Shown here: in pieces, positions 8,712 to 62,547 of the stretch
Layout: each line of letters starts with the position of its first letter
Numbering within the stretch: the first letter of the stretch is position 1
Assembly: GCA_024398105.1 (NCBI GenBank)
Contig: JAKSJP010000008.1
Location: 16,232 to 80,231 of the forward strand
Direction: 5' to 3'
Origin: Bacteroidales bacterium
Lineage (GTDB): Bacteria > Bacteroidota > Bacteroidia > Bacteroidales > UBA932
Length of the DNA: 64,000 nt
Position numbers and translations under genes: made by a program
The notes under the pieces: generated by a model
Databases searched by the model: none
Seen by the model: only the letters and a program-made list of their open reading frames with translations
What the model was told of the DNA's origin: nothing

Positions 8712-10334
8712 CTACATCACCTTGTCAAGGAAGCGGTAGCTGATTGCTTCAGAGACATGGGAGACCTCGATCTGGGTTTTGCCCTCGAGATCGGCGATGG
8801 TCCGCGCGATCTTTAAGATTCGCGCATACGCACGTGCGGACAGGCCCATTCTCTTCATGGCTTTCTCAAGAAGGTCCATGCAGTCCTTGTCCAGGGGGCA
8901 GAACTCCTTGAGCTGTTCGGAATTCATCTCGGAGTTGGTCGTGATGGGAAGTGCGGAGAAGCGCTGCAGCTGGATGTCCCTTGCCTTCTTCACTCGGAGC
9001 GAGACCTCAGCGCTGGATTCTTCCCGCCGGGTGCGGCGGACAAGCCGGGACGGGTCGACGCTGTGGAGCCAGAGCTGCAGGTCGATCCTGTCCAGGACAG
9101 GGCCCGACAGACGGCTCATGTAGTTCATTCTGGCGCCCACGGAGCAGGTGCATCTTTCCCCTTCTCCGTAATAGCCGCAAGGGCAAGGGTTCGCTGCGGC
9201 GACAAGCATGAAGGAGGCTGGGTACTGCACTTTGGAGCGAAGGCGTGAGATCGTCACGACCCTGTCTTCAAGAGGTCCCCTGAGCGCCTCTGCCACCGAT
9301 TTCGGCATCTGCATGTACTCATCGATGAACAGTACGCCCGACTGGGCCAGGGACACTTCCCCTGGCATGATGTTGTCGCCGCTGCCTCCTCCAAGGATCG
9401 CCGGCAGCGAGGAACTGTAGTGCGGCGCCCTGAAAGGCCTCCGTTTCATCAGCCCATACTCGTCCACAGCCTTTCCTGCGACCGAATAGATCTTGCTGAC
9501 GACTATCGATTCCTTCTTGGTCATGGGAGGAAGTATCCCAGGCAGGGCCTTGGCGAGGGAGCTCTTGCCACTCCCAGGGGCACCGACCATGATCACATTG
9601 TGCCCCCCGGCGGCCGCGATCTCAAGCCCGCGCTTCGCGCCGTCCTGGCCGACGATGTCAGCGAAATCCAGGGCGTCGTTCCTGAGGGAGCGGGAAGACG
9701 GTCCTGCAGCACTCTCGGGGCATGGTGCCGGTCCTGCCCCCGTACGGCCATCGGCCCTGCCGGAACCTGTACCGCCAGCCAATATCTCGCGGGCCCGGTT
9801 GAAGATCAGGAGGTCGCTGGGGTCGTCCTCTTCCTGAAGGACGAGCAATGCCTCGTGGATATCCCGGACTGCGAAGATGTCAAGGCCTTCGACCTCGGCG
9901 ACCTGAAGGGCGGAGCCGAGGGGAAGGATGCAGCCGGAAAGGCCCTTGCGGGCGGCCAGTTCAGCGATCGGCAGAGCACCCGGGACGTCCCTTACGGAGC
10001 CGTCAAGGCCGAGTTCCCCCATGATCATATACTTCCCGAGGCCGGGAAGGGAGACCTGGTCGGACGCGGCGATGATTCCCAGGGCTATGGGAAGGTCGTA
10101 CCCGCCTCCTTTCTTATGGACGTCCGCGGGAGCGAGATTGATGACTATCTTGCGGCCCGGGACGCGGAAGCCTGAAGCGTTGAGAGCGGTGATGGTCCTG
10201 AGAAGGCTTTCCTTCACGGCGGCATCCGCCAGTCCGACAAGGTGGATACCAATTCCGTTGCTGATGTCAATCTCCACAGTAACGGATTCTGCATCTATTC
10301 CGATGCATCTAGCAGCATTGATGTTGATAAGCAT
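8712..10334 (-). CDS. comM: ComM/YifB family Mg-chelatase-like AAA ATPase
   Basis: 540 residues from the ATG at 10334 (MLININAARCIGIDAESVTV), which matches the family start; an upstream in-frame ATG at 10385 adds 17 unrelated residues. Domains in order: N-terminal ChlI-like (Lon-protease-like fold) domain with the VGLADAAVKES segment, AAA core with Walker A GAPGSGKSSLAKALPG, Walker B LFIDEY, and the C-terminal Mg-chelatase domain with a Cys cluster (NPCPCGYYGEGERCTCS). ComM is a branch-migration helicase that aids integration of foreign DNA in natural transformation in other bacteria. It is isolated on the minus strand, back to back with the ilv operon. Confidence 0.9.
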   Translation of the reverse strand: MLININAARCIGIDAESVTVEIDISNGIGIHLVGLADAAVKESLLRTITALNASGFRVPGRKIVINLAPADVHKKGGGYDLPIALGIIAASDQVSLPGLGKYMIMGELGLDGSVRDVPGALPIAELAARKGLSGCILPLGSALQVAEVEGLDIFAVRDIHEALLVLQEEDDPSDLLIFNRAREILAGGTGSGRADGRTGAGPAPCPESAAGPSSRSLRNDALDFADIVGQDGAKRGLEIAAAGGHNVIMVGAPGSGKSSLAKALPGILPPMTKKESIVVSKIYSVAGKAVDEYGLMKRRPFRAPHYSSSLPAILGGGSGDNIMPGEVSLAQSGVLFIDEYMQMPKSVAEALRGPLEDRVVTISRLRSKVQYPASFMLVAAANPCPCGYYGEGERCTCSVGARMNYMSRLSGPVLDRIDLQLWLHSVDPSRLVRRTRREESSAEVSLRVKKARDIQLQRFSALPITTNSEMNSEQLKEFCPLDKDCMDLLEKAMKRMGLSARAYARILKIARTIADLEGKTQIEVSHVSEAISYRFLDKVM

Positions 10335-10587
10335 AAGTGTCTGAATTGCTGATTGCACGAGCCGTGCAACCTGTTTCAGGACCAAAGAAAAATATTATCA
10401 ATATTTAAGCAAAACAATACACCACACTTACAATCTGTTCGCCACATTATTAAAATTCCTTAACTATTTAATGATTTTTAACCTGGTAAAGATTATTATT
10501 TACCAAGTAAGAAATAAATTGTAACTTGCCATCTAGGGCGCTATGAACCAGTTATCTTCCGCTAAATCGTTTTTGACTGGTTTTTTC
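10335..10587. other. AT-rich divergent region between comM and the ilv promoter
   Basis: Contains the inverted repeat CCTGGTAAA (10482-10490) / TTTACCAAG (10499-10507) with an 8-base centre. The same 9-mer recurs as a direct pair at 47552 and 47573. A comM promoter must lie here, but no clear -7 box is seen. Confidence 0.4.
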
Positions 10588-10618
10588 TTTGAATTTATCT
10601 TATCATTTAATAGATTTG
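10588..10618 (+). promoter_or_regulatory. Promoter of the ilv-leu operon
   Basis: TTTG (10588-10591) and TAGATTTG (10611-10618), 19 bases apart, match the Bacteroides -33 and -7 (TAnnTTTG) elements. Transcription would begin near 10624, about 23 bases before the leader peptide ATG. Confidence 0.7.
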
Positions 10619-10646
10619 CACCCGAAACTTTAACAACAGGAATAAA

Positions 10647-10721
10647 ATGTCCAATCTTATCGTCGTCATTCTCGTCGTCGTCCTTACCCTAAAGGTAGAA
10701 GGACTGGGAAAGCGCGCCTAA
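10647..10721 (+). CDS. ilvL: Branched-chain leader peptide of the ilv-leu operon
   Basis: A 24-codon gene. It reads MSNLIVVILVVVLTLKVEG and then five more residues. Thirteen residues are Val (6), Leu (5) or Ile (2), and codons 4-13 are an unbroken run of them. It is preceded by A-rich AATAAA and followed by a terminator hairpin before ilvD. The last codons (GGA CTG GGA AAG) carry the left arm of an antiterminator, as expected for ribosome-mediated attenuation. Its product is not expected to have a function of its own. The symbol is by analogy with enterobacterial leaders; no sequence homology is claimed. Confidence 0.85.
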   Translation: MSNLIVVILVVVLTLKVEGLGKRA

Positions 10722-10779
10722 GATTTGAACAATGATAATTTAAAGAGCCTTTCTCAGTCAAACTGAAAAAGGCTTTTTT
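10702..10779 (+). terminator. ilv-leu attenuator (antiterminator and terminator)
   Basis: Terminator: AGCCTTTCTCAGT (10746-10758), loop CAA, ACTGAAAAAGGCT (10762-10774), six Ts; 12 of 13 pairs match. Antiterminator: GACTGGGAAAG (10702-10712, inside the leader gene) pairs over all 11 bases, with one G-U, with CTTTCTCAGTC (10749-10759) and so destroys the terminator. A ribosome stalled on the Val/Leu/Ile codons leaves 10702-10712 free (readthrough); one that reaches the stop at 10719 covers it (termination). Confidence 0.85.
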
Positions 10780-10798
10780 AATTCTTACAGAAGACAAT

Positions 10799-12640
10799 AT
10801 GGAAATGAAACATCAGTTGCGCAGCGCAGCTACCACCGAGGGCAGAAGAATGGCAGGAGCCAGGGCTCTCTGGGTTGCGACCGGAATGAAGAAGGAACAG
10901 ATGGGCAAGCCTATCATCGCAGTGGTGAACTCCTTCACCCAGTTCGTACCGGGCCACACCCACCTCCACGAGATCGGCCAGATCGTAAAGGCTGAGATCG
11001 AGAAGCTCGGCTGCTACGCTGCAGAGTTCAACACTATCGCAGTCGACGACGGCATCGCAATGGGCCACGACGGAATGCTCTATTCCCTCCCTTCACGCGA
11101 CATCATCGCAGACAGCGTGGAATACATGGTCAACGCGCACAAGGCCGACGCAATGGTATGCATCAGCAACTGTGACAAGGTCACCCCTGGAATGCTCCTC
11201 GCAGCGATGAGACTCAACATCCCTGCAGTATTCGTGTCAGGCGGCCCTATGGAGGCAGGCAAGGTGAACGGCGAGAACGCCGACCTCATCACTGCCATGA
11301 TCAAGGGTGGTGACAACACCGTCAGCGACGAGGAACTCGACGTAGTTGAGCGTACAGCCTGCCCAGGCTGCGGAGCATGCTCAGGAATGTTCACCGCAAA
11401 CTCGATGAACTCGCTCACCGAGGCCATCGGTCTTTCACTTCCGGGCAACGGATCCATCCTCGCCACACACGTGAACCGTATCCAGCTCTTCAAGGATGCA
11501 GCAAAGCTCATCGTGAAGAACGCCTACGCATACTATCAGGACGGCGACGAGAGCGTACTCCCTAAGAGCATCGCCACACGTCAGGCCTTCCTCAACGCCA
11601 TGACCCTCGACATCGCGATGGGTGCGTCGACAAACACCGTCCTCCACCTTCTCGCAGTCGCAAACGAGGCAGGCGTGGACTTCAAGATGACCGACATCGA
11701 CCAGCTCAGCCGCAAGGTTCCGTTCATCTGCAAGCTTTCCCCTAACTGGCAGAAATACAGCATCCAGGAGGAGAACCGTGCCGGCGGTATACTCGGTATC
11801 ATGGGAGAACTCGCGAAGGGAGACCTCCTCGACCTCAGCTGCAAGAGAGTCAACGGTGCCACCCTCGGAGAGGACATCGTGAAGTACAGCATCACAGGCG
11901 AGCAGATCGACCCTGAGGCCGACCGTATCTACCGCAGCGCACCTGCAGGTAAGTTCAGCATCAGGATGGGCAGCCAGGACGCTCGTTGGGAGACCCTCGA
12001 CACAGACCGTGAGAACGGATGTATCCGCGACCTCGAGCACGCATATACAAAGGACGGCGGAATGGCAGTCCTCTTCGGCAACATCGCACAGGACGGCTGC
12101 GTAGTCAAGACCGCAGGCGTCGCACAGGAGCTCTGGCACTTCGAAGGACCTGCAGTGGTATTCGACAGCCAGGAGGCAGCCTGCGACGGCATCCTCGGAG
12201 GAAAGGTAAAGAAGGGCGACTGCGTCGTCATCACATACGAAGGACCTAAGGGCGGACCTGGAATGCAGGAGATGCTCTACCCTACCTCATACATCAAGTC
12301 AATGCACATGGGCAAGGAATGTGCGCTCATCACCGACGGTCGCTTCAGCGGCGGTACCTCAGGTCTGAGCATCGGCCACATCTCCCCTGAGGCGGCAGCC
12401 GGCGGAAACATCGGTCTCGTAAGGGACGGAGACATCATCGTCATCGACATCCCTTCAAGAAGCATCGACGTCAAGGTATCTGACGAGGAGCTCCAGGCAA
12501 GACGCGACGAGGAACTCGCAAGAGGAAAGAAGGCCTTCACACCTCCTATCAGGAACAGAGTCGTATCCAAGAGCCTCAAGGCATACGCGGCCATGGTAAG
12601 CTCTGCTGACAAGGGTGCGGTCAGAATCATCGAAGACTAG
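10799..12640 (+). CDS. ilvD: Dihydroxy-acid dehydratase
   Basis: 613 residues, the normal length. The Fe-S ligands are in [12 protein letters not shown] and [18 protein letters not shown], and the C-terminal [11 protein letters not shown] is conserved in the family. IlvD makes 2-ketoisovalerate and 2-keto-3-methylvalerate in the valine and isoleucine pathways. It is the first structural gene after the attenuator, with its ATG 19 bases beyond the T-run. The gap to ilvB is 27 bases. Confidence 0.97.
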
Positions 12641-12667: not shown

Positions 12668-14389
12668 ATGGAAAATAAGATAATGTCTGGAGCGGACATT
12701 CTGCTCCAATCCCTCATCGACCAGGGAATAGATACCATCTTCGGTTACCCTGGCGGATCAATCATGCCGGTCTACGACAGGCTCTATGACTATGGAGACC
12801 GTCTCAGGCACATTCTCGTGAGACATGAGCAGGGTGCCATCCACGCAGCTCAGGGCTATGCCAGGGCAAAGCACTTCCCTGGTGCCGTGATCGTAACTTC
12901 AGGCCCAGGTGCGACAAATGTCATCACCGGCATCGCAGACGCGATGATCGATTCGACACCGCTTGTAGTCATCACAGGACAGGTAGGCGCCAACCTCCTT
13001 GGAACAGACGCGTTCCAGGAGACTGACGTGATCGGCCTCACCGGCCCTATCACAAAATGGAACTATCAGATACGCAGGCCGGAAGATGTAGCATGGGCCG
13101 TTGCAAGGGCATTCTACATCGCAAAGAGCGGCCGTCCGGGCCCTGTCGTCCTTGACTTCGCCAAGAACGCACAGACAGGCATGGCTGAATATAAGAAAGA
13201 GCAGTGCAGCTTCATCAGAAGCTACGATCCGTATCCGGAGGTGAAGCTCGCTGACATCGCCAAGGCAGCGGACATGATCAACGCATCGAAGAGGCCTCTC
13301 ATCGTATATGGCCAGGGCATCATCCTGGGCAATGCGGAGAAAGAACTTCTTTCCGTCATCGAGAAGGCAGACATCCCTGCAGGATCCACACTCCTCGGAC
13401 TCAGCGGCATTCCTTCCGACTGCCCTAACTATCTAGGAATGGTGGGAATGCACGGAAACATCGCACCTAACGTGATGACCCAGAAATGCGACCTGCTCAT
13501 TGCAGTCGGAATGAGATTTGACGACCGTGTCACAGGTAAGACAGACGAATATGCAAAGCAGGCGAAGATCATACACATCGACATCGACGCAGCAGAGATC
13601 AACAAGAACGTCAAGGTCGACCTCGGAATCATAGGCGATGCCAAGACCGTCCTTCCACGCATAGAGGCTCTTCTCGAGAAGAAGGACCACAGCGAGTGGA
13701 AGAAAGTCGCAGCCAAGTGCCGCGAGATCGAGGAAGAAAAGGTCATTGGTCCTGAATGCCGTCCTGGCAAGGGTTACATCAACATGGGTGAGGTCGTAGA
13801 GACCGTGGCAGAAGTCACCAAAGACTCAGCCATCATCATCACCGACGTCGGTGAGAACCAGATGATCGGCGCAAGATACTCACGCTACAACCAGACACGA
13901 AGCATGATCACTTCCGGTGGTCTCGGCACCATGGGATTCGGCCTTCCTGCAGCGATCGGCGCAAAGATCGGTGCACCGGAGAGACCAGTCTGCCTCTTCG
14001 TCGGAGACGGTGGCCTCCAGATGACGATCCAGGAGCTCGGCACCATCATGCAGGAGCATACAGGTGTGAAGATCGTACTTCTCAACAACAACTGGCTCGG
14101 TAACGTACGTCTCTGGCAGGAGCTCTTCTTCAACGAAAGATATTCTTTCACAAGGATGCTCAATCCTGAATACAAGCTCATCGCCGACGCCTACGGAATC
14201 AGCTACAAGGTAGTGAACAGGAGAGAAGACCTCAGAGCTGCAGTCGAAGAGATGTTCGCTGACGACAAGCCATACCTCCTCAACGTGGAGGTGGAGGAGA
14301 AGGGAATGGTATTCCCTATGGTACCTCCGGGAAAGAGCGTGAGCGAAATCATGTTGAACAAGAAAGATTGGCTTGAATATGGCGAATAA
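12668..14389 (+). CDS. ilvB: Acetolactate synthase large subunit
   Basis: 573 residues. The catalytic Glu is in VRHEQGAIHAAQGYARA, and the thiamine diphosphate/Mg motif runs from GDGGLQM to NNNWLGNVRLWQ. The enzyme condenses pyruvate with pyruvate or 2-ketobutyrate. It overlaps the start of the regulatory subunit gene by 11 bases, so the two subunits are probably made in fixed ratio. Confidence 0.97.
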   Translation: MENKIMSGADILLQSLIDQGIDTIFGYPGGSIMPVYDRLYDYGDRLRHILVRHEQGAIHAAQGYARAKHFPGAVIVTSGPGATNVITGIADAMIDSTPLVVITGQVGANLLGTDAFQETDVIGLTGPITKWNYQIRRPEDVAWAVARAFYIAKSGRPGPVVLDFAKNAQTGMAEYKKEQCSFIRSYDPYPEVKLADIAKAADMINASKRPLIVYGQGIILGNAEKELLSVIEKADIPAGSTLLGLSGIPSDCPNYLGMVGMHGNIAPNVMTQKCDLLIAVGMRFDDRVTGKTDEYAKQAKIIHIDIDAAEINKNVKVDLGIIGDAKTVLPRIEALLEKKDHSEWKKVAAKCREIEEEKVIGPECRPGKGYINMGEVVETVAEVTKDSAIIITDVGENQMIGARYSRYNQTRSMITSGGLGTMGFGLPAAIGAKIGAPERPVCLFVGDGGLQMTIQELGTIMQEHTGVKIVLLNNNWLGNVRLWQELFFNERYSFTRMLNPEYKLIADAYGISYKVVNRREDLRAAVEEMFADDKPYLLNVEVEEKGMVFPMVPPGKSVSEIMLNKKDWLEYGE

Positions 14390-14693
14390 TTTATACGAAA
14401 TAACCGTTTACTCGGAAAACCAGGTCGGTTTGCTCAGCTTCATTGCAAACACTTTCACAAGAAGAAGCATCAACATCGAATCACTCAGGGTATTCCCTTC
14501 GGAGATTCCAGGAGTGCACAAGTTCACCATCAAGAGCCGTACGACTGAAGAGCAGATCCTCCAGGTCGTAAAGCAGATTGAAAAGAAGGTCGACGTACAC
14601 AAGGCTTTCTACTACGTCGATGATGAAAGGCATGTCCGTGAGATCGAAGCCGTACAGGCTCTCATCGACAGCAGAATGGAAGAAAACAGATAA
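14379..14693 (+). CDS. ilvN: Acetolactate synthase small (regulatory) subunit
   Basis: 104 residues from the ATG at 14379 (a TTG at 14373 is also in frame). One ACT domain is visible: YEITVYSENQVGLLSFIANTF, then RRSINIESL. This is short for the family (160 or more residues in two-domain forms), so it keeps the valine-binding ACT part but lacks most of the second domain, like E. coli IlvN. It confers feedback control on IlvB. Confidence 0.93.
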   Translation: MANNLYEITVYSENQVGLLSFIANTFTRRSINIESLRVFPSEIPGVHKFTIKSRTTEEQILQVVKQIEKKVDVHKAFYYVDDERHVREIEAVQALIDSRMEENR

Positions 14694-14699
14694 AAGTTA

Positions 14700-14740
14700 A
14701 AAATATAAAAAAGTAAACAAAAAATATAAAAAAGTAAACA
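14700..14740 (+). repeat. Tandem 20-bp A-rich repeat in the ilvC leader
   Basis: AAAATATAAAAAAGTAAACA occurs at 14700-14719 and again at 14721-14740, just before the ilvC ATG at 14744. A-rich leaders aid translation in Bacteroidota, which lack strong Shine-Dalgarno use; the duplication may boost ilvC output. Confidence 0.8.
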
Positions 14741-14743
14741 ATT

Positions 14744-15793
14744 ATGGCAGTTTTGAACTTTGGCGGTGTCAACGAGACAGTCGTTACCCGCGACGAATTT
14801 ACACTCGATCACGCAAGAGAGGTACTTAAGGACGAGAAGATCGCAGTCATCGGCTACGGTGTACAGGGTCCTGGTCAGGCTTGCAACCTCCGCGACAACG
14901 GTTTCAACGTAATCGTAGGTCAGCGTCAGGGAAAGACTTTCGAGAAGGCAATCGCTGACGGTTGGGTTCCAGGTGAGACACTCTTCTCAATCGAGGAGGC
15001 TGCAGAGCAGGCTTCAATCATCATGTGCCTCCTTTCTGACGCAGCTGTAATGTCAGTATGGCCGACACTCAAGCAGTACCTCACCCCAGGTAAGGCTCTC
15101 TACTTCTCACACGGTTTCGCTATCACATGGAACGACCGTACAGGCGTTGTCCCTGGATCAGACTATGATGTGATCATGGTTGCTCCTAAGGGCTCAGGTA
15201 CCTCACTCCGTACCATGTTCCTCGAGGGCCGTGGCCTCAACTCTTCATACGCTGTATATCAGGACGCTACAGGCCGTGCAATGGAGCGCACACTCGCACT
15301 CGGTATCGGTATCGGTTCAGGTTACATGTTCGAGACTACATTCCAGCGTGAGGCTACTTCAGACCTTACAGGTGAGCGTGGCTCACTCATGGGCGCTATC
15401 CAGGGTCTCCTCCTCGCACAGTACGAGGTTCTCCGTGAGAACGGTCACTCACCAAGTGAGGCATTCAACGAGACAGTCGAGGAGCTTACCCAGTCACTCA
15501 TGCCTCTCTTCGCTCAGAAGGGTATGGACTGGATGTACGCAAACTGCTCTACAACAGCACAGCGCGGTGCTCTTGACTGGATGGGTCCATTCCACGACGC
15601 TTGCAAGCCAGTTGTCGAGAAGCTCTACGCTTCTGTAAAGTGCGGTAACGAGGCTCAGATCTCTATCGACGCAAACTCAAAGCCAGACTACCGTGTAGGT
15701 CTCGAGGCTGAGCTCAAGGCTCTCCGTGAGAGCGAGATGTGGCAGACCGCTGTCACAGTACGTTCACTCCGTCCTGAGAACGACAACAAGTAA
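14744..15793 (+). CDS. ilvC: Ketol-acid reductoisomerase (class I)
   Basis: 349 residues, class I size. The nucleotide-binding motif is IGYGVQGPGQACNLRD and a VGQRQGK loop sets the NAD(P)H preference. The Mg-binding region includes DLTGERGSLMG and the E-rich helix near residue 250. It turns acetolactate into dihydroxyisovalerate. Codon use differs from its neighbours: GGT, GCT and TCA replace the GGA/GGC/GCC used in ilvD or leuC, a pattern shared with susC and susD and best explained by high expression. Confidence 0.96.
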   Translation: MAVLNFGGVNETVVTRDEFTLDHAREVLKDEKIAVIGYGVQGPGQACNLRDNGFNVIVGQRQGKTFEKAIADGWVPGETLFSIEEAAEQASIIMCLLSDAAVMSVWPTLKQYLTPGKALYFSHGFAITWNDRTGVVPGSDYDVIMVAPKGSGTSLRTMFLEGRGLNSSYAVYQDATGRAMERTLALGIGIGSGYMFETTFQREATSDLTGERGSLMGAIQGLLLAQYEVLRENGHSPSEAFNETVEELTQSLMPLFAQKGMDWMYANCSTTAQRGALDWMGPFHDACKPVVEKLYASVKCGNEAQISIDANSKPDYRVGLEAELKALRESEMWQTAVTVRSLRPENDNK

Positions 15794-15814
15794 TAATAGA
15801 GAAACCATCCTTTA

Positions 15815-17314
15815 ATGGACAAGAACAAGGTTTACATATTCGACACCACGCTCCGCGACGGCGAGCAGGTTCCTGGATGTCAGCTCAATACCATTGAGAA
15901 GATCCAGGTAGCCAAGGCCCTCGAGGAGCTGGGCGTCGATGTGATCGAGGCAGGATTCCCTATCTCAAGCCCTGGCGACTTCAATTCAGTCGTCGAGATC
16001 TCCAAGGCAGTCACATGGCCTACCATCTGTGCTCTCACAAGAGCCGTTGAGAAGGACATCGACGTCGCTGCAGAGGCACTCCAGTACGCTAAGCACAAGA
16101 GAATCCATACCGGTATCGGTACATCTGACTCACACATCAGATACAAGTTCAACTCAACACGCGAGGAGATCATCGAGCGTGCCGTCAAGGCTGTCAAGTA
16201 CGCCAAGAAGTACGTCGAGGATGTCGAGTTCTACGCAGAGGATGCGGGAAGGACCGACAACGAGTATCTTGCAAGGGTCGTAGAGGCTGTCATCAAGGCC
16301 GGCGCCACAGTGGTCAACATCCCTGACACGACCGGTTACTGCCTCCCTGCCGAGTACGGCGAGAAGATCAAGTACCTCATGGAGCATGTCGACGGCATCG
16401 ACAACGCGATCCTTTCCACACATTGCCACAACGACCTCGGAATGGCTACGGCCAACACCATGGCAGGTCTCCTCAACGGAGCCCGTCAGTGCGAGGTGAC
16501 CATCAACGGTATCGGTGAGAGAGCCGGCAACACATCCCTCGAGGAAGTTGCCATGATCATGAAGTGCCATAACGACATCAACCTCCACACAGACATCAAC
16601 ACGAGGAAGATCTACCCGCTCAGCCGTACCGTATCGAGCCTCATGAACATGCCGGTCCAGGCAAACAAGGCGATCGTCGGAAGAAATGCATTCGCACACT
16701 CTTCAGGCATCCACCAGGACGGCGTGCTCAAGAATGTCACGACTTACGAGATCATCGATCCTAAGGACATCGGTCTCGACGACAACAACATCGCTCTTAC
16801 AGCAAGAAGCGGACATGCCGCCCTCAAGTTCCGTCTCGAGGTGCTCGGCATCAAGCCTTCGAAGGAGAAGCTCGACATCCTCTATCAGGAGTTCCTGAAG
16901 CTTGCGGACAAGAAGAAGGAAGTCAACGACGACGACCTTCTCGTACTCGCAGGTGTGGAGAGGTCCGAGAACCAGCACATCAAGCTTGACTATCTCCAGG
17001 TGACCAGCGGTATGGGCGTACGTCCTGTAGCAAGCATCGGCCTTGACATCGCAGGTGAGAAGTTCGAGGCGGCTGCAAGCGGAAACGGTCCTGTGGACGC
17101 CGCGATCAAGGCTCTCAAGAACATCATCAAGCGTAACATGACCATCAAGGAGTTCACGATCCAGAATATCACCAAGGGTTCCGACGACGTCGGCAAGGTG
17201 CATATGCAGGTCGAGAGCGACGGCCGTGTCTACTACGGTTTCGGTGTGAACACCGACATCATCACAGCTGCAGTCGAGGCTTACATCGACTGTATTAACA
17301 AGTTCAGCAAATAA
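15815..17314 (+). CDS. leuA: 2-isopropylmalate synthase
   Basis: 499 residues. The N-terminal HMGL-like barrel begins [18 protein letters not shown] and carries the metal-binding HCHNDLG motif, while the C-terminal LeuA allosteric domain covers about residues 375-499. It condenses 2-ketoisovalerate with acetyl-CoA, the first step to leucine, and is feedback-inhibited by leucine. It lies 21 bases after ilvC and 2 bases before leuC. Confidence 0.95.
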
Positions 17315-17316
17315 CA

Positions 17317-18705
17317 ATGAATACTCTTTTTGACAAGATCTGGGATGCTCACGTAGTCAATATGATCGAAGACGGTCCTACCCAGCTCTATATCGACAGG
17401 CTCTACTGTCATGAGGTGACAAGCCCTCAGGCATTCGACACTCTCCGCGACAAGGGCATCAAGCCTTTCCGCGCAGACCATATCATCGCCATGCCTGACC
17501 ACAACACACCTTCAGACCAGCAGGAGGAAATCACCGACCCTATCGGCCGCAAGCAGGTCGAGACACTCGCAGCTAACTGCGAGCAGTTCGGCATCAAGCA
17601 TTTTGCCATGGGCACAAAGGACAATGGCATCATCCATGTCGTAGGTCCAGAGAAGGCTCTTTCACTCCCTGGCATGACAATCGTCTGCGGTGACTCGCAC
17701 ACATCTACCCACGGTGCAGTAGGTGCGATCGCAATGGGTATCGGCACATCGGAGGTAGCACAGGTGCTCGCATCGCAGTGCATCCTCCAGTCAAAGCCTA
17801 AGACTATGCGCATCAACATCGAGGGTGAGCTTCAGAACGGCGTGACCGCAAAGGACGTAGCTCTCTACATCATGTCAAAGATGACTACCGCAGGAGCCAC
17901 AGGCTTCGCAGTGGAGTACGCCGGTTCGACCATACGCAACATGTCCATGGAAGGCCGCCTCACCCTTTCCAACCTCTCGATCGAGATGGGTAGCCGCGCA
18001 GGCCTCATCGCTCCTGACGAGATCACCTTCGAGTATCTCAAGGGCCGCGAGTACGCTCCTAAGGGAGAGGCTTGGGACAAGGCTGTGGAAGAGTGGAAGA
18101 AGCTCCGCAGCGACGACGACGCAGTCTTCGACAAGGAAGTGACATACCAGGCAGAGGACATCAAGCCTCGCATCACATACGGCACCAACCCAGGCGCAGG
18201 TATCGCCATCGACGAGTGCATCCCTACGCTTGAGAGCATTCCTGAGGCAGAGCAGGGCCAGTTCCTCTCACAGCTTCAGTACATGCAGTTCGAGCCGGGC
18301 GAGAAGCTCGAGGGCCATCCGGTCGACTACTGCTTCCTCGGAGCATGTACCAACGGCCGTATCGAGGACTTCCGTGCGTTCGCAAGCGTAGTCAAGGGTA
18401 AGAAGAAGGCTGAGAACGTTGTCGCATGGCTCGTTCCGGGCTCATGGCTAGTGCGCAAGCAGATCATCGAGGAAGGCATCGACAAGATACTGGAGGAAGC
18501 CGGTTTCGAGCTCCGCCTCCCATCTTGCTCCGCATGTCTCGCGATGAATCCTGACAAGGTGCCTGCAGGCAAGCTCGCCATCTCTACAAGCAACAGAAAT
18601 TTCGTAGGCCGTCAGGGCCCAGGCGCACGTACAGTCCTTGCTTCTCCGCTCGTGGTAGCGGCAAGTGCAGTCACAGGCGTAATTACAGACCCACGTAAAA
18701 TCTAG
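17317..18705 (+). CDS. leuC: 3-isopropylmalate dehydratase large subunit
   Basis: 462 residues, aconitase superfamily. 4Fe-4S cysteines are seen in [15 protein letters not shown] and in [13 protein letters not shown], and [19 protein letters not shown] is the typical active-site stretch. It isomerises 2- to 3-isopropylmalate together with LeuD, whose gene starts 4 bases downstream. Confidence 0.97.
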
Positions 18706-18709
18706 GACC

Positions 18710-19327
18710 ATGGCTAAGCAGAAATTCAATATCATCAAGTCGACATGCATTCCTATTGCAATCGACAACTGCAATACAGACCTCATCATTCCTGCACGAT
18801 ATCTTGCATCGACCACACGTGATCCGAAGTTCTTCGGCGACGCGTTCATGCATGATCTCCGCTATGACGCACAGGGTGCACCGGTCTCTGACTTCGTGAT
18901 GAACCTTCCTGAGTACTCAGAGGCTCCTCACGAGGGCGTGCACGAGATTGTCGTAGGCGGTCAGAACTGGGGCTCAGGATCAAGCCGCGAGCACGCAGCA
19001 TGGGCTATCTCAGGCTACGGCGTACGCGTAGTGATCTCTTCAAGCTTCGCTGACATCCACCGCAACAACCTTCTCAACTGCTTCGTCCTCCCTGTCATCG
19101 TAAGCAAGGAGTTCCAGCAGGAACTGTTCGAGTCAATCGCTGCGGATCCTCAGACAGTCGTGACAGTCGACGTACCTAACCAGACAGTCACCAACGAGGC
19201 GACAGGAAAGAGCGAGTCATTCAGCATCAACGCATACAAGAAGCACTGCCTCATGAATGCGCTCGATGACATCGACTACCTCCTCACCCAGAAGGACAAG
19301 ATCGAAGAATACGAACAGAAAGCATAA
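18710..19327 (+). CDS. leuD: 3-isopropylmalate dehydratase small subunit
   Basis: 205 residues, the swivel domain of the aconitase fold. Conserved motifs are NCNTDLIIPARYL and NWGSGSSREHAAWA. Its stop overlaps the start of the next gene (TAATGA at 19325-19330), which points to translational coupling. Confidence 0.97.
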   Translation: MAKQKFNIIKSTCIPIAIDNCNTDLIIPARYLASTTRDPKFFGDAFMHDLRYDAQGAPVSDFVMNLPEYSEAPHEGVHEIVVGGQNWGSGSSREHAAWAISGYGVRVVISSSFADIHRNNLLNCFVLPVIVSKEFQQELFESIAADPQTVVTVDVPNQTVTNEATGKSESFSINAYKKHCLMNALDDIDYLLTQKDKIEEYEQKA

Positions 19328-20856
19328 TGATAGAGATTCTTGACACAACCCTCCGTGACGGCGAGCAGACAGCCGGCGTCTCGTTCAGTGCGGACGAGAA
19401 GCTTGCTATCGCGCGTCTTCTCCTCGACGAGCTGAAAGTCAACAGGATCGAGGTAGGCTCCGCCCGCGTCTCACGAGGTGAGCAGGAAGCCTTCGCAAAG
19501 ATCTGCGGTTGGGCGGCCAAGGCCGGCCACATCGGAAAGATCGAGGCCCTCGGCTTCATTGACGGCGGCATCTCTGTCGACTGGATCGCCACTGCGGGCG
19601 GAAAAGTCATCAACCTCCTCTCCAAGGGCTCGCTCAAGCATGTCACCGGACAGCTCAAGAAGACTCCTCAGCAGCATCTTGAAGATGTCCTCTCCAACAT
19701 CGCCCTGGCCCACGCCAAAGGACTAGAGGTCAACCTCTATCTTGAGGACTGGTCCAACGGAATGCTCCATTCCAAGGACTATGTCATGTTCATGATGGAG
19801 GGCCTCAAGGACGCAGGAATCAAGAGATTCATGCTTCCAGACACCCTTGGAATCCTCGATCCGGACGAGACACGCGAGCTGGTGGCAGAGATGGTAAGGA
19901 CATACCCTGATCTCCATTTCGACTACCATGCCCACAATGACTATGACCTCGCCGCCGGAAACGTCTTCGCAGCCCTCAAGGCCGGTGCACATGGACTCCA
20001 TGTCACGGTAAACGGTCTTGGAGAGAGAGCCGGAAACGTTCCTGTCGCCAGCGTAGTCGGAATCCTCAACGACCATCTCCACATCGAGAACACTCTCAAC
20101 GAGGCCAAGCTGACACATGTCTGCAAGGTAGTAGAGTCGATCTCAGGCATACGCATCGCAGGCAACAAGCCTATCGTCGGCGAACTCGTGTTCACCCAGA
20201 CCAGCGGCGTCCATGCCGACGGAGACAGGAAGGACGGCCTCTACCAGAACGACCTTCTTCCTGAAAGGTTCAACCGAGTACGCGAATACGCCCTCGGCAA
20301 GACCAGCGGCAAGGCCAACATCGTCAAGAACCTCGAAGCCCTCGGCATCAGCCTTGATCCGGAGCAGATGAAGCTCGTGACGAAGAGAGTCGTCGAGCTC
20401 GGAGACAAGAAAGAGACCATGACCGCGGAAGACCTGCCGTTCATCATAGCGGATGTCCTCAAAGGCGGGCACCATGAACTCGAAGAAACCATACAGATCG
20501 TCAACTACAGCCTCAACCTTACCAGGAACCTCCGTCCTCTGGCGAACCTCAGGATCAGCATCGACGGTACCGAGTACGAGGAAAGCGCTGTCGGCGACGG
20601 TCAGTACAATGCCTTCATGAACGCACTCTGGAAGATCTACAGCAAGCTTGGCAAGGACCACCCTATGCTCGCGGACTACCAGGTCAGCATCCCTCCGGGA
20701 GGAAAGACCGACGCGCTCGTGCAGACGACCATCACCTGGAGATGGAACGGCCGCAACTTCAGGACCCGCGGCATCGATTCCGACCAGACAGAAGCAGCCA
20801 TCAAGGCTACCTCGAAGATGTTGAACATTATAGAAAACTCAGACATTAAACTTTAA
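19327..20856 (+). CDS. cimA: Citramalate synthase / second isopropylmalate synthase-like enzyme
   Basis: 509 residues. The HMGL barrel has [16 protein letters not shown] and the metal motif [11 protein letters not shown], followed by a C-terminal allosteric domain with a divergent end. It is clearly distinct from leuA in the same operon. Bacteroidota commonly carry such a second enzyme; (R)-citramalate synthase, which uses pyruvate and acetyl-CoA to open the threonine-independent isoleucine route, is the most likely role. LeuC/LeuD and leuB next door can serve both routes, and no ilvA is present. An alternative is a second 2-isopropylmalate synthase. Confidence 0.7.
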
Positions 20857-20860
20857 TAAG

Positions 20861-21931
20861 ATGAAATTCAAGATTGCCAAGCTTCCAGGAGACGGTATCG
20901 GTCCGGAAGTCGTTGAACAGGCCGTGAAGGCCGTTGACGCCATCTGTGCGAAATTCGGCCACGAGGTCGAGTATTCATTCGGATACGTCGGAGCATGTGC
21001 CATCGACAAGTATGGTGACGCATATCCACAGGAGACACACGAGACCTGCCTCAACGCAGACGCAGTGCTCTTCGGTGCAGTAGGTGACCCTAAATACGAC
21101 AACAACCCTACAGCAAAGGTACGCCCTGAGCAGGGCCTCCTCGCAATGAGGAAGCAGCTCGGTCTCTTCGCGAACCTCCGTCCTGTCGAGACTTTCAAGA
21201 GCCTCGTGCACAAAAGTCCTCTCAAGGAAGAGCTCGTAGACGGCGCAGACTTCCTCTGCATGCGTGAGCTCACCGGCGGCATGTACTTCGGCGCAAAGGG
21301 CCGCGAGGACAACGGCGACACCGCATATGACACCAACCTCTACCACAGATATGAGGTAGAGCGCATCCTCAAGCTCTCATACGAGTACGCACGCAACCGC
21401 CGCAAACACCTCACCGTAGTGGACAAGGCCAACGTCCTCGAGTCTTCACGTCTGTGGAGACAGGTAGCACAGGAGATGGCTCCTCAGTATCCTGACGTAG
21501 AGACAGACTACATGTACGTCGACAACGCTGCGATGAAGCTCATCACAGGTCCTAAGTTCTTCGACGTCCTCGTGACCGAGAACACCTTCGGTGACATCCT
21601 TACCGATGAGGCAAGCTGCGTATCGGGTTCAATGGGTCTCCTCGCATCGGCTTCAGTGGGCGAGCACACCTCAGTGTTCGAGCCTATCCACGGTTCATAT
21701 CCTCAGGCAGCAGGCAAGAACATCGCCAACCCTCTCGCAACCATCCTTTCAGCAGCCATGATGTTCGAATACGCATTCGGTCTCATGGAGGAAGGCAAGG
21801 CTATCCGCGCGGCAGTCGCAGCATCGATCGACGCGAACATCGTCACCGAAGACCTTGCAGCCCCAGGCGAGAAGAAGTACTCTACCTCAGAGGTAGGTGA
21901 CTGGGTTGCAGACTACATCTCAAAGAACTAG
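20861..21931 (+). CDS. leuB: 3-isopropylmalate dehydrogenase
   Basis: 356 residues. The start [18 protein letters not shown] and the Mg/substrate motif of the beta-decarboxylating dehydrogenase family ([15 protein letters not shown]) are clear, as is the coenzyme motif [19 protein letters not shown]. It oxidises 3-isopropylmalate to 2-ketoisocaproate and may also act on 3-methylmalate in the citramalate route. It lies 4 bases after cimA. Confidence 0.96.
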
Positions 21932-21948
21932 AATAAACTACAATAACT

Positions 21949-22989
21949 ATGGCAGAAATGGATTGGTCTAATCTTTCTTTCCAGTACAGAAAGACTAATG
22001 CTATCATCGTCAGCTACTACAAGGACGGCGAATGGTCGCCTTTGACAGCTACAAAGGATTTTGATTTCCACTTCAGCGCATTCGCTGGTGTGTTCCACTA
22101 TGCAAACGCATGCTTCGAGGGTCTCAAGGCCTTCAGAGGCGTGGACGGCAAGGTACGTCTTTTCCGCCCTGATGAGAATGCAAAGAGAATCCAGAGAAGT
22201 GCCGGACACCTTGACATGGCATATCCTAGCGAGGAGATGTTCATCGAGGCCTGCATGATGGCTGTAAGAGAGAACATCGAATTCCTTCCTCCTTACGGAT
22301 ATGGTGCTTCAATGTACCTGCGTCCAGTGATCATCGGCATCAACCCTCAGCTCGGAATCGCTTCTTCAAAGGAAGTGATCTTCGCTGTGATGTGCGCTCC
22401 TGTAGGCACATATTCAGGTGCAAAGATCCTTACCCCTGGCACAGCAGTGCTCGCAAGGAACTACGACCGCGCTGCTCCTAACGGAACAGGTTCATACAAG
22501 ATCGCAGCGAACTACGCTACATCGCTCCACCCATACAACCTCGCTCACAAGCAGGGCTACAGGGAGCTCCTCTTCCTCGATCCTGCCACAAAGACCAAGG
22601 TCGATGAGTTCGGTTCATCGAACTTCCTCGCAATCAAGGGTAACACCTACGTGACACCTCTTTCTGACTCAGTCCTTCCTTCAATCACCAACAAGACCCT
22701 CCAGGCAGTTGCACAGGATTTCGGCATGACAGTAGAGAAGAGAGTCATTCCTGTAGAGGAAATCGCCGAGTTCGAGGAGATCAATGCCTGCGGTACAGCA
22801 GTAGTCATCACTCCTATCTGCTCTGTCGACGACAAGCCTACCCTCGAAAGCACAGAGATCACCAGGACCTACAACGTCCCTTCCGGCGACGAGTGCGGTA
22901 AGGTCAGCCGCAAGATGTACGACCGCATCCGCGGCATCCAGGACGGTCTCGAAGAGGATACCCACAACTGGAACTTCTTCCTTGACTAG
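21949..22989 (+). CDS. ilvE: Branched-chain amino-acid aminotransferase
   Basis: 346 residues, fold-type IV PLP enzyme. The PLP lysine is in GTGSYKIAANYATS, and FEGLKAFRG and GTAVVITPI are family motifs. It transfers an amino group from glutamate to the three branched-chain keto acids, the last step for all of them. It is the last gene of the operon, followed by a strong terminator. Confidence 0.96.
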   Translation: MAEMDWSNLSFQYRKTNAIIVSYYKDGEWSPLTATKDFDFHFSAFAGVFHYANACFEGLKAFRGVDGKVRLFRPDENAKRIQRSAGHLDMAYPSEEMFIEACMMAVRENIEFLPPYGYGASMYLRPVIIGINPQLGIASSKEVIFAVMCAPVGTYSGAKILTPGTAVLARNYDRAAPNGTGSYKIAANYATSLHPYNLAHKQGYRELLFLDPATKTKVDEFGSSNFLAIKGNTYVTPLSDSVLPSITNKTLQAVAQDFGMTVEKRVIPVEEIAEFEEINACGTAVVITPICSVDDKPTLESTEITRTYNVPSGDECGKVSRKMYDRIRGIQDGLEEDTHNWNFFLD

Positions 22990-54166: not shown

Positions 54167-55372
54167 CTAGTCTAAGATTCCTGGGTCGTCCTTATGGGCG
54201 AGATATGTGTCAAGGTCCTTGTCGCCGCGGCCGGATACAGTCAGCACGACCACATCCTCAGGTTTAAGCTGGCCCTTGAGGTGAGGAAGCGCGCCGAGGG
54301 CATGGGCCGACTCGAGAGCGGGGATGATTCCCTCGAGGCGTGTGAGCTCGAATGCGGCACGGAGAGCCTCATCGTCATTGATAGGAAGGACTGTAGCGCG
54401 GTGCTGCTGTGCCATGTTGGCGTGGAGAGGGCCTACTCCCGGATAGTCAAGACCTGCGGAGATCGAGTATGGCTCGATGATCTGGCCGTCCTCAGTCTGC
54501 ATGACGAGCGAGCGGCTTCCGTGGAGGATTCCGAGGGTTCCCGCAGCGATCGTGGCTGCTGTAAGACCTGAGTCCACACCCTTTCCACCAGCCTCTGCAA
54601 GCACTATCTTGACGCGGAGGTCATCGACATAATGATATACTGTACCGCCGGCATTCGAACCGCCGCCTACGCAGGCCACGAGATAGTCAGGATAGTCTCT
54701 TCCCTCCTTCTCCATCAGCTGCCACTTGATCTCCTTGGAGATGACGCTCTGGAGCCTTGCCACCATGTCCGGATATGGGTGAGGACCCACTGTAGAACCG
54801 ATGATGTAGAATGTATCGGCAGGATGGCAGCACCAGTCGCGGATAGCCTCGTTGGTCGCATCCTTCAGGGTCATGTTACCGCTCTCAACCGGGAATACCT
54901 CCGCTCCGAGCATCTTCATACGCTCGACGTTGACGTGCTGGCGCTTCACATCGGTCGCACCCATGTAGACGCGGCACGGCATGTTCATGAGGGCACATAC
55001 GGTCGCAGTTGCGACACCATGCTGACCTGCGCCGGTCTCTGCGATGATGCGGGTCTTGCCCATCTTCTTCGCAAGAAGGATCTGGCCTATCGCATTGTTG
55101 ATCTTGTGTGCACCGGTGTGGTTGAGGTCCTCGCGCTTGAGATACAGCTTGCAGCCGTACTTCTCGCTCATGCGCTTGGAGAAGTAAAGAGGTGACGGTC
55201 TTCCGACGTAGTCCCTGAGAAGGTCGTTGTACTCCTTCTTGAACTCCTCGCTCTCGATGATAGGGAGATATGCCTTCTTCAGGTCCTCGACGCATTTATA
55301 GAGGATCTCAGGCACGTATGCTCCGCCGAACTCGCCGTAGAAGCCGTTTTCATCTACCAGAAAAGATTTCAT
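54167..55372 (-). CDS. trpB: Tryptophan synthase beta subunit
   Basis: 401 residues, with the PLP lysine in [13 protein letters not shown] and the PLP phosphate loop GGGSNAGG. It is first in the operon, 28 bases after the attenuator T-run. The order trpB-E-G-D-C-F-A is typical for Bacteroidota. Confidence 0.96.
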
Positions 55373-55399: not shown

Positions 55400-55441
55400 A
55401 AAAAAAGAAGGAATCTGTGAGTCGTGCCCGCAGATTCCTTC
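55400..55441 (-). terminator. trp attenuator terminator
   Basis: On the minus strand GAAGGAATCTG pairs perfectly with CAGATTCCTTC (11 bp) and is followed by seven Ts. Its loop has CACGACT (plus 55420-55426), complementary to AGTCGTG around the leader peptide stop (plus 55488-55494), with weaker extra pairing of TTTTC with GAAGG. That pairing would be the antiterminator. Confidence 0.8.
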
Positions 55442-55486: not shown

Positions 55487-55543
55487 TCACGACTGTGTAT
55501 GTCTTGAGTGCCAGCGCCACCAGAAGAAAGAATTGTTTGCCAT
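55487..55543 (-). CDS. trpL: Tryptophan leader peptide
   Basis: An 18-codon gene: MANNSFFWWRWHSRHTQS then TGA. Three Trp codons (UGG UGG CGC UGG) lie at positions 8, 9 and 11, and the stop is followed by a terminator hairpin and trpB. A promoter (TTG, 18 bases, TATATTTG) is 20 bases upstream. A ribosome stalled at the Trp codons would leave the region around the stop free to pair with the terminator loop. Confidence 0.88.
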   Translation of the reverse strand: MANNSFFWWRWHSRHTQS

Positions 55544-59993: not shown

Positions 59994-62547
59994 TTCCGAA
60001 GGAAATCTGCTTAGGATCAGGGAATGCTCCCATTTCGACTCCGATGGAAGGATCTGACGTGATGACTGTTTCCGGATCAAGACCCGGATAATTCGTGAGA
60101 CATACGAAATTATCCAAGGAAGCATAGATACGGATCTGCTTGGTCCATATTTTCCTAAGGAGACTCTCAGGCAGAGAGTAACCCAACTGTATCTGCCTTA
60201 GCTTGAAGAAAGAACCATTCCATAGATTGAAGGAAGACTTGTTCACAAAGGTGCTCCAATTATTGACTGACGGGTAAGCGGCATTATCGCCAGGGGCCTG
60301 CCAGGTAGATTCCCACAACTCGGCATAGGTATTCTGCATCGGAATCACCGCGGACCAAAGACATGAGTATATCTGATTTCCCGCTACGCCGGAGCCTGTC
60401 ACCGCAAGATCAAAACCTCTGTACGCAAGACTGATACTGATGCCATAGGACAGAGGTGGAATTCCTGAGCCTATCTCCTGCTCATCAGCGTAATTGTATT
60501 CGCCATCTTCAACGACCTCGGCATAGATTCCTTTTCCAGTCTGCGGATCGACTCCAACAGCCTTGTATCCACGGAAGCTCCACATCGGATAACCCTGTTC
60601 GATGACCGTATTTACATTAAAGTCAGTTATACCAGTATTATAGGATCCTATGAGCCTTGTTATATCAGGTTCGAGAAATGAAGTCCTGTTACGCAGATAT
60701 GAGACATTACCTGAGACAGACCATGAAACCTCTCCTATCCTGTCAGAGGCCGACAAGGAGAGTTCCGCCCCTGAATTAGTGAACGCCATATCAATCCTGG
60801 GGTCTGCTTGAAGGAGATAGTCCTTATAACAGAAAGTTTGCTGGCTCCTGTTATGGAAGTAATCCACCGACACAGAAACCTTCTCGTCCAGCAGGCGAAC
60901 ATCAATCCCGGCATCCATAAAACTCCTGTCAGTCAACATAGATTGAGAAGGTGAAGTCTCTGGAAAAGCCTTGGAGAAGTCTGAAAACTCATTCTGACTT
61001 CTGCCATATGAAGCACGAAGAGAAAGGAATTCAAAGGACCCTGCGCTGGCTGAGACTGAATATGACATATGAGGTTCCTCAATCATCTGAGTGCCCCGGC
61101 TGAAAGCAGCGCTGACAGCGTATCTGCCGGAGAACACATAACCAAGATGTCCGAAGTACCTGTATTTTCTGTCCGACTGGCTCCCCCGCTCCAAAGAATT
61201 GATGACAGCGCTTATATACTCCCCGCCCGCCATGGCTTCAATCCTATGTTTCCCGAAATCCCGGTTGTACGATACAGTCAGATCACCCTGATATCCGCTG
61301 TACTCATCGTCAGTATTTTCTGTATCACGGTAATCTGCATGATTGATGAAATCATAGTAAAACGGAGTGACCTCCATCAGCGAAGTGGATCTGTCACGGA
61401 AATATCCGAGTTTTGCACTTATCTCAAGACCTGACAATGGAGTAAATACGGCTGAAGACATCCCTCGCAATGAGTATCCGTCATACGATCTTGACCAGTA
61501 GTCCCTTCGCAGGAAAGGATGTCCGGTCATGGACACAAAAAGGTCAGCCAGATACAGGCCTGAGCAAGAATCTTTTGCCAGTTCGCTTCCGTCTCCTCCC
61601 AAGTACTGGATCTGATTTGATGTCAGTCCATCCTTATCAACGGTAACCGGTCGGATAGGAGGGGCTACCATAGCCGATATGAATGGTGACTGTGTATCAT
61701 AAGTACCGGTCATTATGGTGCTGCCCTTGTGCTTCTCAAGGGAATTCGACGTAGAAAGGCGCAGCCATGGAGTCAGCTGATATGAGCCGTTGACCTGGGC
61801 AGACATACGATTGTATCTGTCCTTGTCACCAGCGAAGATCCCGTCATTCCCGATTACGCTTGCACTGACGAAATATGCGCCTTTGTCATTTCCTCCCTGG
61901 ACTCCGAAGGTGTGGCGAGAGTTCCAGCTAGGTTCAGTCACCGCCCCAAGCCAGTCAGTATCCACGCCGGAATTGACGTCTTTGATATATTGCCCCAGTC
62001 CGTACTCTTTGGCAAAATCGATATACTGAGAAGCATCCATCATACGGCTCTTATGAGCGAGGCTTGCAAGAGAGAACTCATTCCGGTAGAATACATGTCC
62101 TTTCCCTCCTTTGCCCTTTCTGGTATGGATGATGACGGCACCCTCGCCTGCTTCAGCGCCATACAGCGCAACCGCTGCCCCCTTGAGGACCTCGATGGAC
62201 TCTATCATTTCCGGTGCAAGGTACTGTACATCCTTGACCCTCAGGCCGTCCACTATGAACAACGGCTCTGTATCACGAATGAAAGATGAGAATCCTCGTA
62301 TCTTCAGCCCTGGCATCGCACCTGGTTCGCCTGACGTGTTGAGGACAAGAACGCCAGCCATCTTTCCAGTCAAAGCCCTGACCGGATCGTTATAGGAAAG
62401 ATTCCACAGTTCCTCTCCCTTGACGGAAGAAATCGCTGCGGAAAGAGAGTCGCTTTTACTTATTTCCTGGGCATATGCCTGAACTGATGACATTGCCAGC
62501 ACGGTTGCCGCCGCAACTACAAAAAAGCGTAAGATTCTCATAAACAT
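59977..62547 (-). CDS. Orphan SusC-like TonB-dependent receptor
   Basis: 856 residues, signal peptide to about 26 (MRILRFFVVAAATVLAMSSVQAYAQ; the ATG at 62541 is an equal start). It lacks the N-terminal carboxypeptidase-like domain of the SusC at 23235. The plug begins at VKGEELWNLSYNDPVRALTGKMAGV and has IVDGLRV and a modified GAEAGEGAVIIHTRKG end. The barrel ends KQISFGINLAF. No SusD gene is near, and the substrate is unknown. A TATCTTTG -7 box lies at 62558-62565. Confidence 0.9.
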   Translation of the reverse strand: MFMRILRFFVVAAATVLAMSSVQAYAQEISKSDSLSAAISSVKGEELWNLSYNDPVRALTGKMAGVLVLNTSGEPGAMPGLKIRGFSSFIRDTEPLFIVDGLRVKDVQYLAPEMIESIEVLKGAAVALYGAEAGEGAVIIHTRKGKGGKGHVFYRNEFSLASLAHKSRMMDASQYIDFAKEYGLGQYIKDVNSGVDTDWLGAVTEPSWNSRHTFGVQGGNDKGAYFVSASVIGNDGIFAGDKDRYNRMSAQVNGSYQLTPWLRLSTSNSLEKHKGSTIMTGTYDTQSPFISAMVAPPIRPVTVDKDGLTSNQIQYLGGDGSELAKDSCSGLYLADLFVSMTGHPFLRRDYWSRSYDGYSLRGMSSAVFTPLSGLEISAKLGYFRDRSTSLMEVTPFYYDFINHADYRDTENTDDEYSGYQGDLTVSYNRDFGKHRIEAMAGGEYISAVINSLERGSQSDRKYRYFGHLGYVFSGRYAVSAAFSRGTQMIEEPHMSYSVSASAGSFEFLSLRASYGRSQNEFSDFSKAFPETSPSQSMLTDRSFMDAGIDVRLLDEKVSVSVDYFHNRSQQTFCYKDYLLQADPRIDMAFTNSGAELSLSASDRIGEVSWSVSGNVSYLRNRTSFLEPDITRLIGSYNTGITDFNVNTVIEQGYPMWSFRGYKAVGVDPQTGKGIYAEVVEDGEYNYADEQEIGSGIPPLSYGISISLAYRGFDLAVTGSGVAGNQIYSCLWSAVIPMQNTYAELWESTWQAPGDNAAYPSVNNWSTFVNKSSFNLWNGSFFKLRQIQLGYSLPESLLRKIWTKQIRIYASLDNFVCLTNYPGLDPETVITSDPSIGVEMGAFPDPKQISFGINLAF

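Follow-up and report, generated by a model that had tools for sequence, protein, structure and literature searches.

The region before ilvD is, with a probability that we put at about 0.92, a classical ribosome-mediated transcription attenuator. It lies in a 64,000-nucleotide stretch of DNA (the window) from a 2.4-Mb Bacteroidales genome of 48 contigs. We observed the parts, how they can pair, and that they are conserved and co-vary; together these point to leader translation, premature termination and an amino acid response. An earlier, sequence-only reading had placed a promoter, a leader gene, an antiterminator and a terminator before ilvD, and its coordinates hold on direct reading.

The leader gene is on the plus strand at 10647–10721, with its ATG at 10647 and its TAA at 10719–10721. 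Its 24 codons specify the peptide MSNLIVVILVVVLTLKVEGLGKRA, in which 13 of 24 residues are Val, Leu or Ile (V/L/I). The control codon run, codons 4–15 (10656–10691, plus strand), has V/L/I at 11 of 12 positions and includes most of segment 1. The Bacteroides promoter consensus is TTTG / TAnnTTTG, and the promoter of the leader (10588–10618, plus strand) reads TTTG-N19-TAGATTTG, with TTTG at 10588–10591, 19 nt of spacing and TAGATTTG at 10611–10618. From this position, transcription would be expected to start near 10624. Partial E. coli-type sigma-70 boxes were also found (9–10 of 12 matches; 4 sites, both strands, 1.2 expected), and this assignment was dropped in favour of the Bacteroides-type boxes, which are the better fit and are seen again before leaders at other loci. 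On the upstream side, the region is bordered by a divergent gene with Mg-chelatase domains (8712–10385, minus strand).

The intrinsic terminator (10746–10779, plus strand) has arms at 10746–10758 and 10762–10774 and a T run to 10779. Its stem pairs at 12 of 13 positions, with one C-A mismatch, and ends in six T (10774–10779, the first within the stem). The hairpin region 10735–10781 folds at -17.4 kcal/mol (z -5.4). The scan for promoters and terminators gave this hairpin on the minus strand alone, where the C-A mismatch becomes a G-T pair; we place the terminator on the plus strand, since there the hairpin is followed by its T run, and this is also the reading direction of ilvD. The ATG of ilvD comes 19 nt after the terminator. 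A second hairpin with a T run (about 10545–10583, plus strand, -10.8 kcal/mol) sits immediately upstream of the promoter; the nearest gene with a family match upstream of it is on the minus strand.

The leader and terminator before ilvD are real and no product of chance. Among the 478 ATG-started ORFs of 15–34 codons in the window, one had 9 or more V/L/I codons making up 50% or more of its length, and the same one had a terminator 10–60 nt past its stop. In three shuffled windows, the V/L/I level was reached by 2 of 1761 ORFs, and none of the 1761 had the terminator too. It is conceivable that a metabolite- or tRNA-binding RNA, a riboswitch or T-box, governs the terminator and that the ORF is incidental, since a terminator before a biosynthetic operon and an alternative pairing would suit such a device; a Veillonella ilvD motif has been proposed, in an excerpt of one report, as a weak riboswitch candidate (PMC8632094). 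Against this, Rfam families (amino-acid leaders, T-boxes and riboswitches) gave no covariance-model match at gathering score in the 64-kb window, the interval from promoter to terminator is mostly leader ORF and the codons match the pathway. We give a binding RNA hardly any weight.

The attenuator reading requires that the leader gene and the terminator be linked by alternative pairings. Segment 2, the left arm of the antiterminator (GACTGGGAAAG, 10702–10712, plus strand), is located in the last leader codons, and segment 3, the right arm (CTTTCTCAGTC, 10749–10759, plus strand), overlaps the left arm of the terminator. The 2:3 antiterminator consists of 11 pairs, one of them G-U, with a pairing z of -3.82 compared with shuffles. 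Folding gave -19.0 kcal/mol (z -3.6) for the antiterminator region 10698–10760 and -41.6 kcal/mol (z -4.4) for the whole leader region 10640–10785. A third, weaker pairing, absent from the sequence-only reading, joins the control codons with segment 2 and its surroundings in the fold of the free leader, as a 1:2 protector hairpin. In free RNA ending at 10762, 2:3 is already favoured over this hairpin (0.96), so that 1:2 would protect only weakly. In the window, 1:2 pairing is no better than in synonymous recodings (z -0.8); over 65 loci it is stronger than in such recodings, at a mean z of -1.35, with 16 loci below -2 and none above 2.

The effect of a ribosome was modelled by setting a 32-nt footprint at each codon, on RNA as it stands before segment 4 is synthesized. 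The antiterminator probability was 0.99–1.00 with the A site on codons 2–15, fell to 0.07 at codon 16 and was 0.00 at codons 17–25. Segment 2 is open while the A site is on codons 4–15, which hold 11 of the 13 V/L/I codons, and is covered from codon 16 or 17 through the stop. Blocking at the codon run versus the stop thus gives the switch that had been expected from the geometry, at a stage before segment 4. At equilibrium, the terminator is the favoured fold of the complete transcript whatever the state of the ribosome (P 0.84–0.99), and therefore the switch must depend on the order of synthesis.

In the proposed mechanism, RNA polymerase would start near 10624 and a ribosome would start on the leader at 10647. 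A shortage of charged Val-, Leu- or Ile-tRNA would hold the ribosome within codons 4–15 and leave segment 2 open. Segment 2 would pair with segment 3 once this is made, no terminator would form and the ilv-leu genes would be transcribed. With an ample supply of these amino acids, the ribosome would go on to the stop (10719–10721) and cover segment 2, allowing segment 3 to pair with segment 4, and transcription would end at about 10779. With no ribosome on the leader, the control codons would be another possible partner for segment 2 (1:2).

The genes placed under this control would be those of a ten-gene row in the order ilvD, ilvB, ilvN, ilvC, leuA, leuC, leuD, cimA-like, leuB and ilvE, all on the plus strand. 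The first structural gene, ilvD, occupies 10799–12640 (NCBIfam and protein comparison), and ilvB through ilvE extend over 12668–22989; names are from NCBIfam, except ilvN, which is from Pfam. Gaps inside the row are 50 nt or less, and this spacing suggests that a single leader controls all ten genes. An operon that includes the citramalate route had been proposed. All ten genes were found, and the citramalate part is less firm: the CimA model is the best match to the cimA-like protein, yet the score is under the curated cut-off (634.6 versus 950 bits).

Leaders of this kind recur before ilvD in related genomes. We collected 188 ilvD loci, of which 187 had usable upstream regions (L131 lacks a start), and called a leader where the best 14-residue stretch had at least 8 V/L/I and the stop was near a terminator. 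This terminator-linked call replaced a detection by V/L/I likelihood, with which some leaders were missed or misassigned. Counts cover loci with an IlvD match, which 26/61 and 64/148 sampled genomes had (the second at E up to 1e-200). Over all sets, a V/L/I leader with a terminator was found in 78/187 upstream regions, compared with 1/935 shuffles and 0/187 reverse complements. The Bacteroidales set, which comes from whole-genome searches and includes the window, has the unit at 60/79 loci and in 36/46 family codes. The remaining 19 of the 79 loci fell under the detection threshold, three of them (L010, L011 and L014) in the window's own genus and with no leader before ilvD; in the window's own family code, used here in place of the genus, 12 of 15 loci have a leader. 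The closest-protein set, mostly Prevotella-type and limited to the best 80 of 515 relatives, has leaders at 6 of 80 loci. Leaders were called at 12/28 loci of a phylum sample, an uneven one made of the 29 best-scoring new loci (L112–L140), many of one family code. A similar scan of another 20 loci elsewhere in the phylum, 4 of which had no usable start, gave leaders in three (L200, L201 and L202). Among eleven minus-strand loci, nine have a leader near ilvD, L023 has a far candidate only and L010 has none.

The leaders also share their layout. Over 65 Bacteroidales-type loci, they have a median of 21 residues, 55% of them V/L/I. In 57/65 loci, a TAnnTTTG box precedes the leader ATG by at most 75 nt, compared with 5.9 expected from shuffles. 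L023 was left out by hand from the 65-locus counts (pairing, recoding and promoter) and kept in those of 66 loci. The leader stop lies a median of 32.5 nt upstream of the terminator (66 loci). The spacing bears on the possibility that the leader acts on translation of ilvD, by reinitiation or translational attenuation, and not on transcription. Leader genes in Bacteroidetes peak 11–14 nt before genes, and reinitiation has been proposed for them, according to part of the report by Korolev et al. (PMC4833913). The leader stop in the window is 77 nt before ilvD, the median over leader-bearing Bacteroidales-type loci is 98 nt, and a terminator with a T run stands between leader and ilvD. These features make a translational role very improbable and fit transcription attenuation.

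Variants of the arrangement were seen at several loci. L191 has tandem leader and terminator units before ilv, with two different leaders, by the scan; L026 and L176 show two tandem units by eye and one each by the scan. Tandem calls at L163 and L023 were rejected, one leader having been counted twice. At five loci of distant phylum members (L114, L120, L122, L127 and L135), V/I-rich ORFs end beside a recurring CCCAAGTCC stretch, with weaker terminators (-11.9 to -14.0); these ORFs are perhaps another form of the same leader device.

By their pairing energies, the arms co-vary among relatives. Over 65 loci, pairing the arm 2 region with arm 3 of the same locus gives -15.8 kcal/mol on average, compared with -11.1 for the arm 3 of other loci, and 0/2000 permutations were as low as own-arm pairing, a test in which relatedness among loci is still included. 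Pairing of arm 2 with arm 3 is below z -2 against shuffles in 52/65 loci. The stop codon is inside arm 2 in 39/65 loci, in an arm search that extended 30 nt to each side of the stop, and TGAGAA or TGAGGA reads from the stop onward in 18/65, which fits a recurring TTCTCA in the terminator arm. In a search blind to the ORF, the arm 2 centre was at most 15 nt from the leader stop in 59/66 loci and in 280/660 shuffled segments. The sequence-only reading had tied itself to homologous leaders with Val/Leu/Ile codons and the pairing, and this check favours it: 60 of 79 Bacteroidales loci keep such a leader and a terminator, and own-arm pairing is on average stronger than pairing with the arms of other loci. 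The leader might instead encode a small functional hydrophobic (membrane) peptide, with the hairpin as its terminator and the operon transcribed by leaky read-through or from another promoter. V/L/I-rich peptides do resemble membrane helices, whereas those listed here share, by eye, little except V/L/I content. Two further points against a membrane peptide are the fit of the arm 2 region to the terminator arm of the same locus and the position of the stop at arm 2; another is that the equivalent his and trp leaders have His or Trp runs in place of hydrophobic helices. We regard a functional peptide as highly unlikely and retain the attenuator.

These his and trp leaders were found by comparable scans. 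A hisG gene is present in 23/40 relatives, and a short His-rich ORF with a terminator accompanies it at 23/23 loci, shortly before hisG at 22 and far upstream at L235. The window's own genome (L242, contig C1) has the His-rich leader MTMIHSHKHHHQI and a terminator before hisG (match 61843–62307). For trp, 13 of 16 TrpE matches were scanned (L250–L262), the three weakest (L263–L265) being left out. A Trp-run leader with a terminator passed at 12/13 of these loci; we trust 11 of the 12 and consider L252 doubtful, and the scan gave no Trp leader at the trp locus L258. In the window, the scan placed the Trp leader MANNSFFWWRWHSRHTQS at 55487–55543 on the minus strand, with a terminator at 55407–55441, before trpB (54167–55372). 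Trp-like ORFs continue beyond trpB down to about 48941, and the trp locus L253 carries two leader and terminator units in tandem. The control codons match the pathway, His before hisG and Trp before trp, which is hard to explain except by attenuation. With equivalent leader-plus-terminator units at his and trp operons, attenuation would not be rare in Bacteroidales.

Prevotella-type genomes differ. We re-scanned 77 loci without a called leader to 700 nt and found two far leaders (L042 and L079; shuffles 0/225). A scan of 74 such loci to 1500 nt gave three units, at L042, L047 and L105; those at L047 (-780) and L105 (-1207) are long ORFs and were taken for chance. The his and trp comparison covered 20 genomes reached through named loci, 19 of them with hisG. 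His leaders were found in 4/20 loci (KHT7, Mediterranea, Ca. C. caccocaballi and Paraprevotella; shuffles 2/100). The same scan gave none at the other 15 Prevotella-type loci, nor at the Marinilabiliaceae locus, where the ilv leader is present. Trp leaders passed in 6/17 loci (KHT7, Paraprevotella, Marinilabiliaceae, Ca. C. caccocaballi and the Prevotella-type L295 and L298; shuffles 4/85), and Mediterranea adds a seventh when a longer stretch is scanned. A weak Trp ORF at L307 (terminator -8.0) was taken for chance. Absence of trp leaders from Prevotella-type loci is not settled, because other trp genes are often upstream of trpB. In this sample, the absence from Prevotella-type loci appears clear at ilv and his operons; at trp operons it is partial or unsettled. 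It would reflect loss and not repeated gain.

The ilvD gene of the window appears to come from this mostly leaderless group. Among named genome contigs, Candidatus Cryptobacteroides caccocaballi has the closest IlvD (93%, among the best 80 of 515 relatives). Relationships were examined with quick trees that carry a single type of support value. The IlvD tree (158 rows) pairs the window with Ca. C. caccocaballi (100), within a 33-row group (99). The 31 other members scored leaderless, and a statement that all 31 of these Prevotella-type neighbours lack a leader would be too strong, as L042 has its far leader. Twelve other own-genus rows form a separate group (98), nine with a leader, and L162 stands elsewhere; L178, L184, L026 and L192 were marked leader-bearing in this tree by eye, though under threshold. 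The IlvB tree places the window with its own genus (99 with G030), in a 15-row set (100) that contains 11 own-genus rows, Ca. C. caccocaballi and two others. Identities follow the same division: ilvD is 85–89% identical to 17 loci (L033–L049) and 69–78% to own-genus loci, and ilvB is 55–61% identical to L033–L049 and 62–76% to own-genus loci, with G258 alone at 55%. Own-genus leaders rank high in similarity to that of the window, with other families mixed in, which is suggestive of an own-genus origin of the leader. Mosaic operons arising by in-place gene displacement are known. The simplest account is that ilvD alone was likely replaced in place by a Prevotella-type gene, between the resident leader and the resident ilvB. 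In a wider history, to which we give even odds, ilv, his and trp attenuation would be old and general in Bacteroidales, Prevotella-type lineages would have lost much of it together, and the foreign ilvD, fitted between resident leader and ilvB, would have come under attenuation.

Classical attenuation requires a ribosome close behind RNA polymerase, and Bacteroidales hardly use Shine-Dalgarno sequences. If attenuation is an old and general feature, coupling of transcription and translation would be tight enough for it despite the scarce use of Shine-Dalgarno sequences. Complete ilv attenuators and his and trp leader-terminator units across many families make coupling directly testable in a major gut and rumen group. 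If the loss is true, Prevotella-type lineages mark where attenuation control was given up, and the contrast with these genomes supplies natural pairs that have or lack the device. The leader would make a compact switch, with a predicted Val/Leu/Ile response open to tests in laboratory Bacteroides. It is also a candidate for an RNA family, one that Rfam does not recognise in the window.

A literature search of titles and abstract starts, with most subscription papers outside its scope, found no ilv attenuator described in Bacteroidales. To judge by its title, a 2010 paper by Lopatovskaya, Seliverstov and Lyubetsky (Mol Biol 44:128) reportedly concerns comparative prediction of attenuators for bacterial amino acid and aminoacyl-tRNA operons, and Bacteroidetes attenuators may already have been predicted there. 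E. coli ilvL (ilvGMEDA) and leuL (leuABCD) are attenuators with Val/Leu/Ile leader peptides. The window resembles them in its Val/Leu/Ile leader codons, alternative hairpins and intrinsic terminator before the operon; it differs in having one leader before ilv and leu together and a Bacteroides-type promoter, and in matching no Rfam leader family. The likeness drawn here is one of design. In excerpts of two reports (PMC11857589, PMC10272879), the Corynebacterium ilvBNC attenuator likewise has a uORF before an ilv operon, a terminator and alternative hairpins, in another phylum and before another first gene. The Staphylococcus aureus ilv attenuator peptide also serves branched-chain synthesis and, unlike that of the window, is leucine-rich and acts beside CodY, as part of its description has it (PMC5794164). 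Closer by descent, an excerpt on Flavobacterium psychrophilum, of the same phylum as the window, points strongly to leader attenuation upstream of amino-acid operons (PMC9723704), and a passage on the Bacteroides thetaiotaomicron map mentions unvalidated sORFs 'reminiscent of leader peptides' (PMC7366714). Compared with these systems, the mechanism proposed here is of a known kind; its interest comes from its breadth in Bacteroidales, its apparent loss in Prevotella-type lineages and the probable displacement of ilvD.
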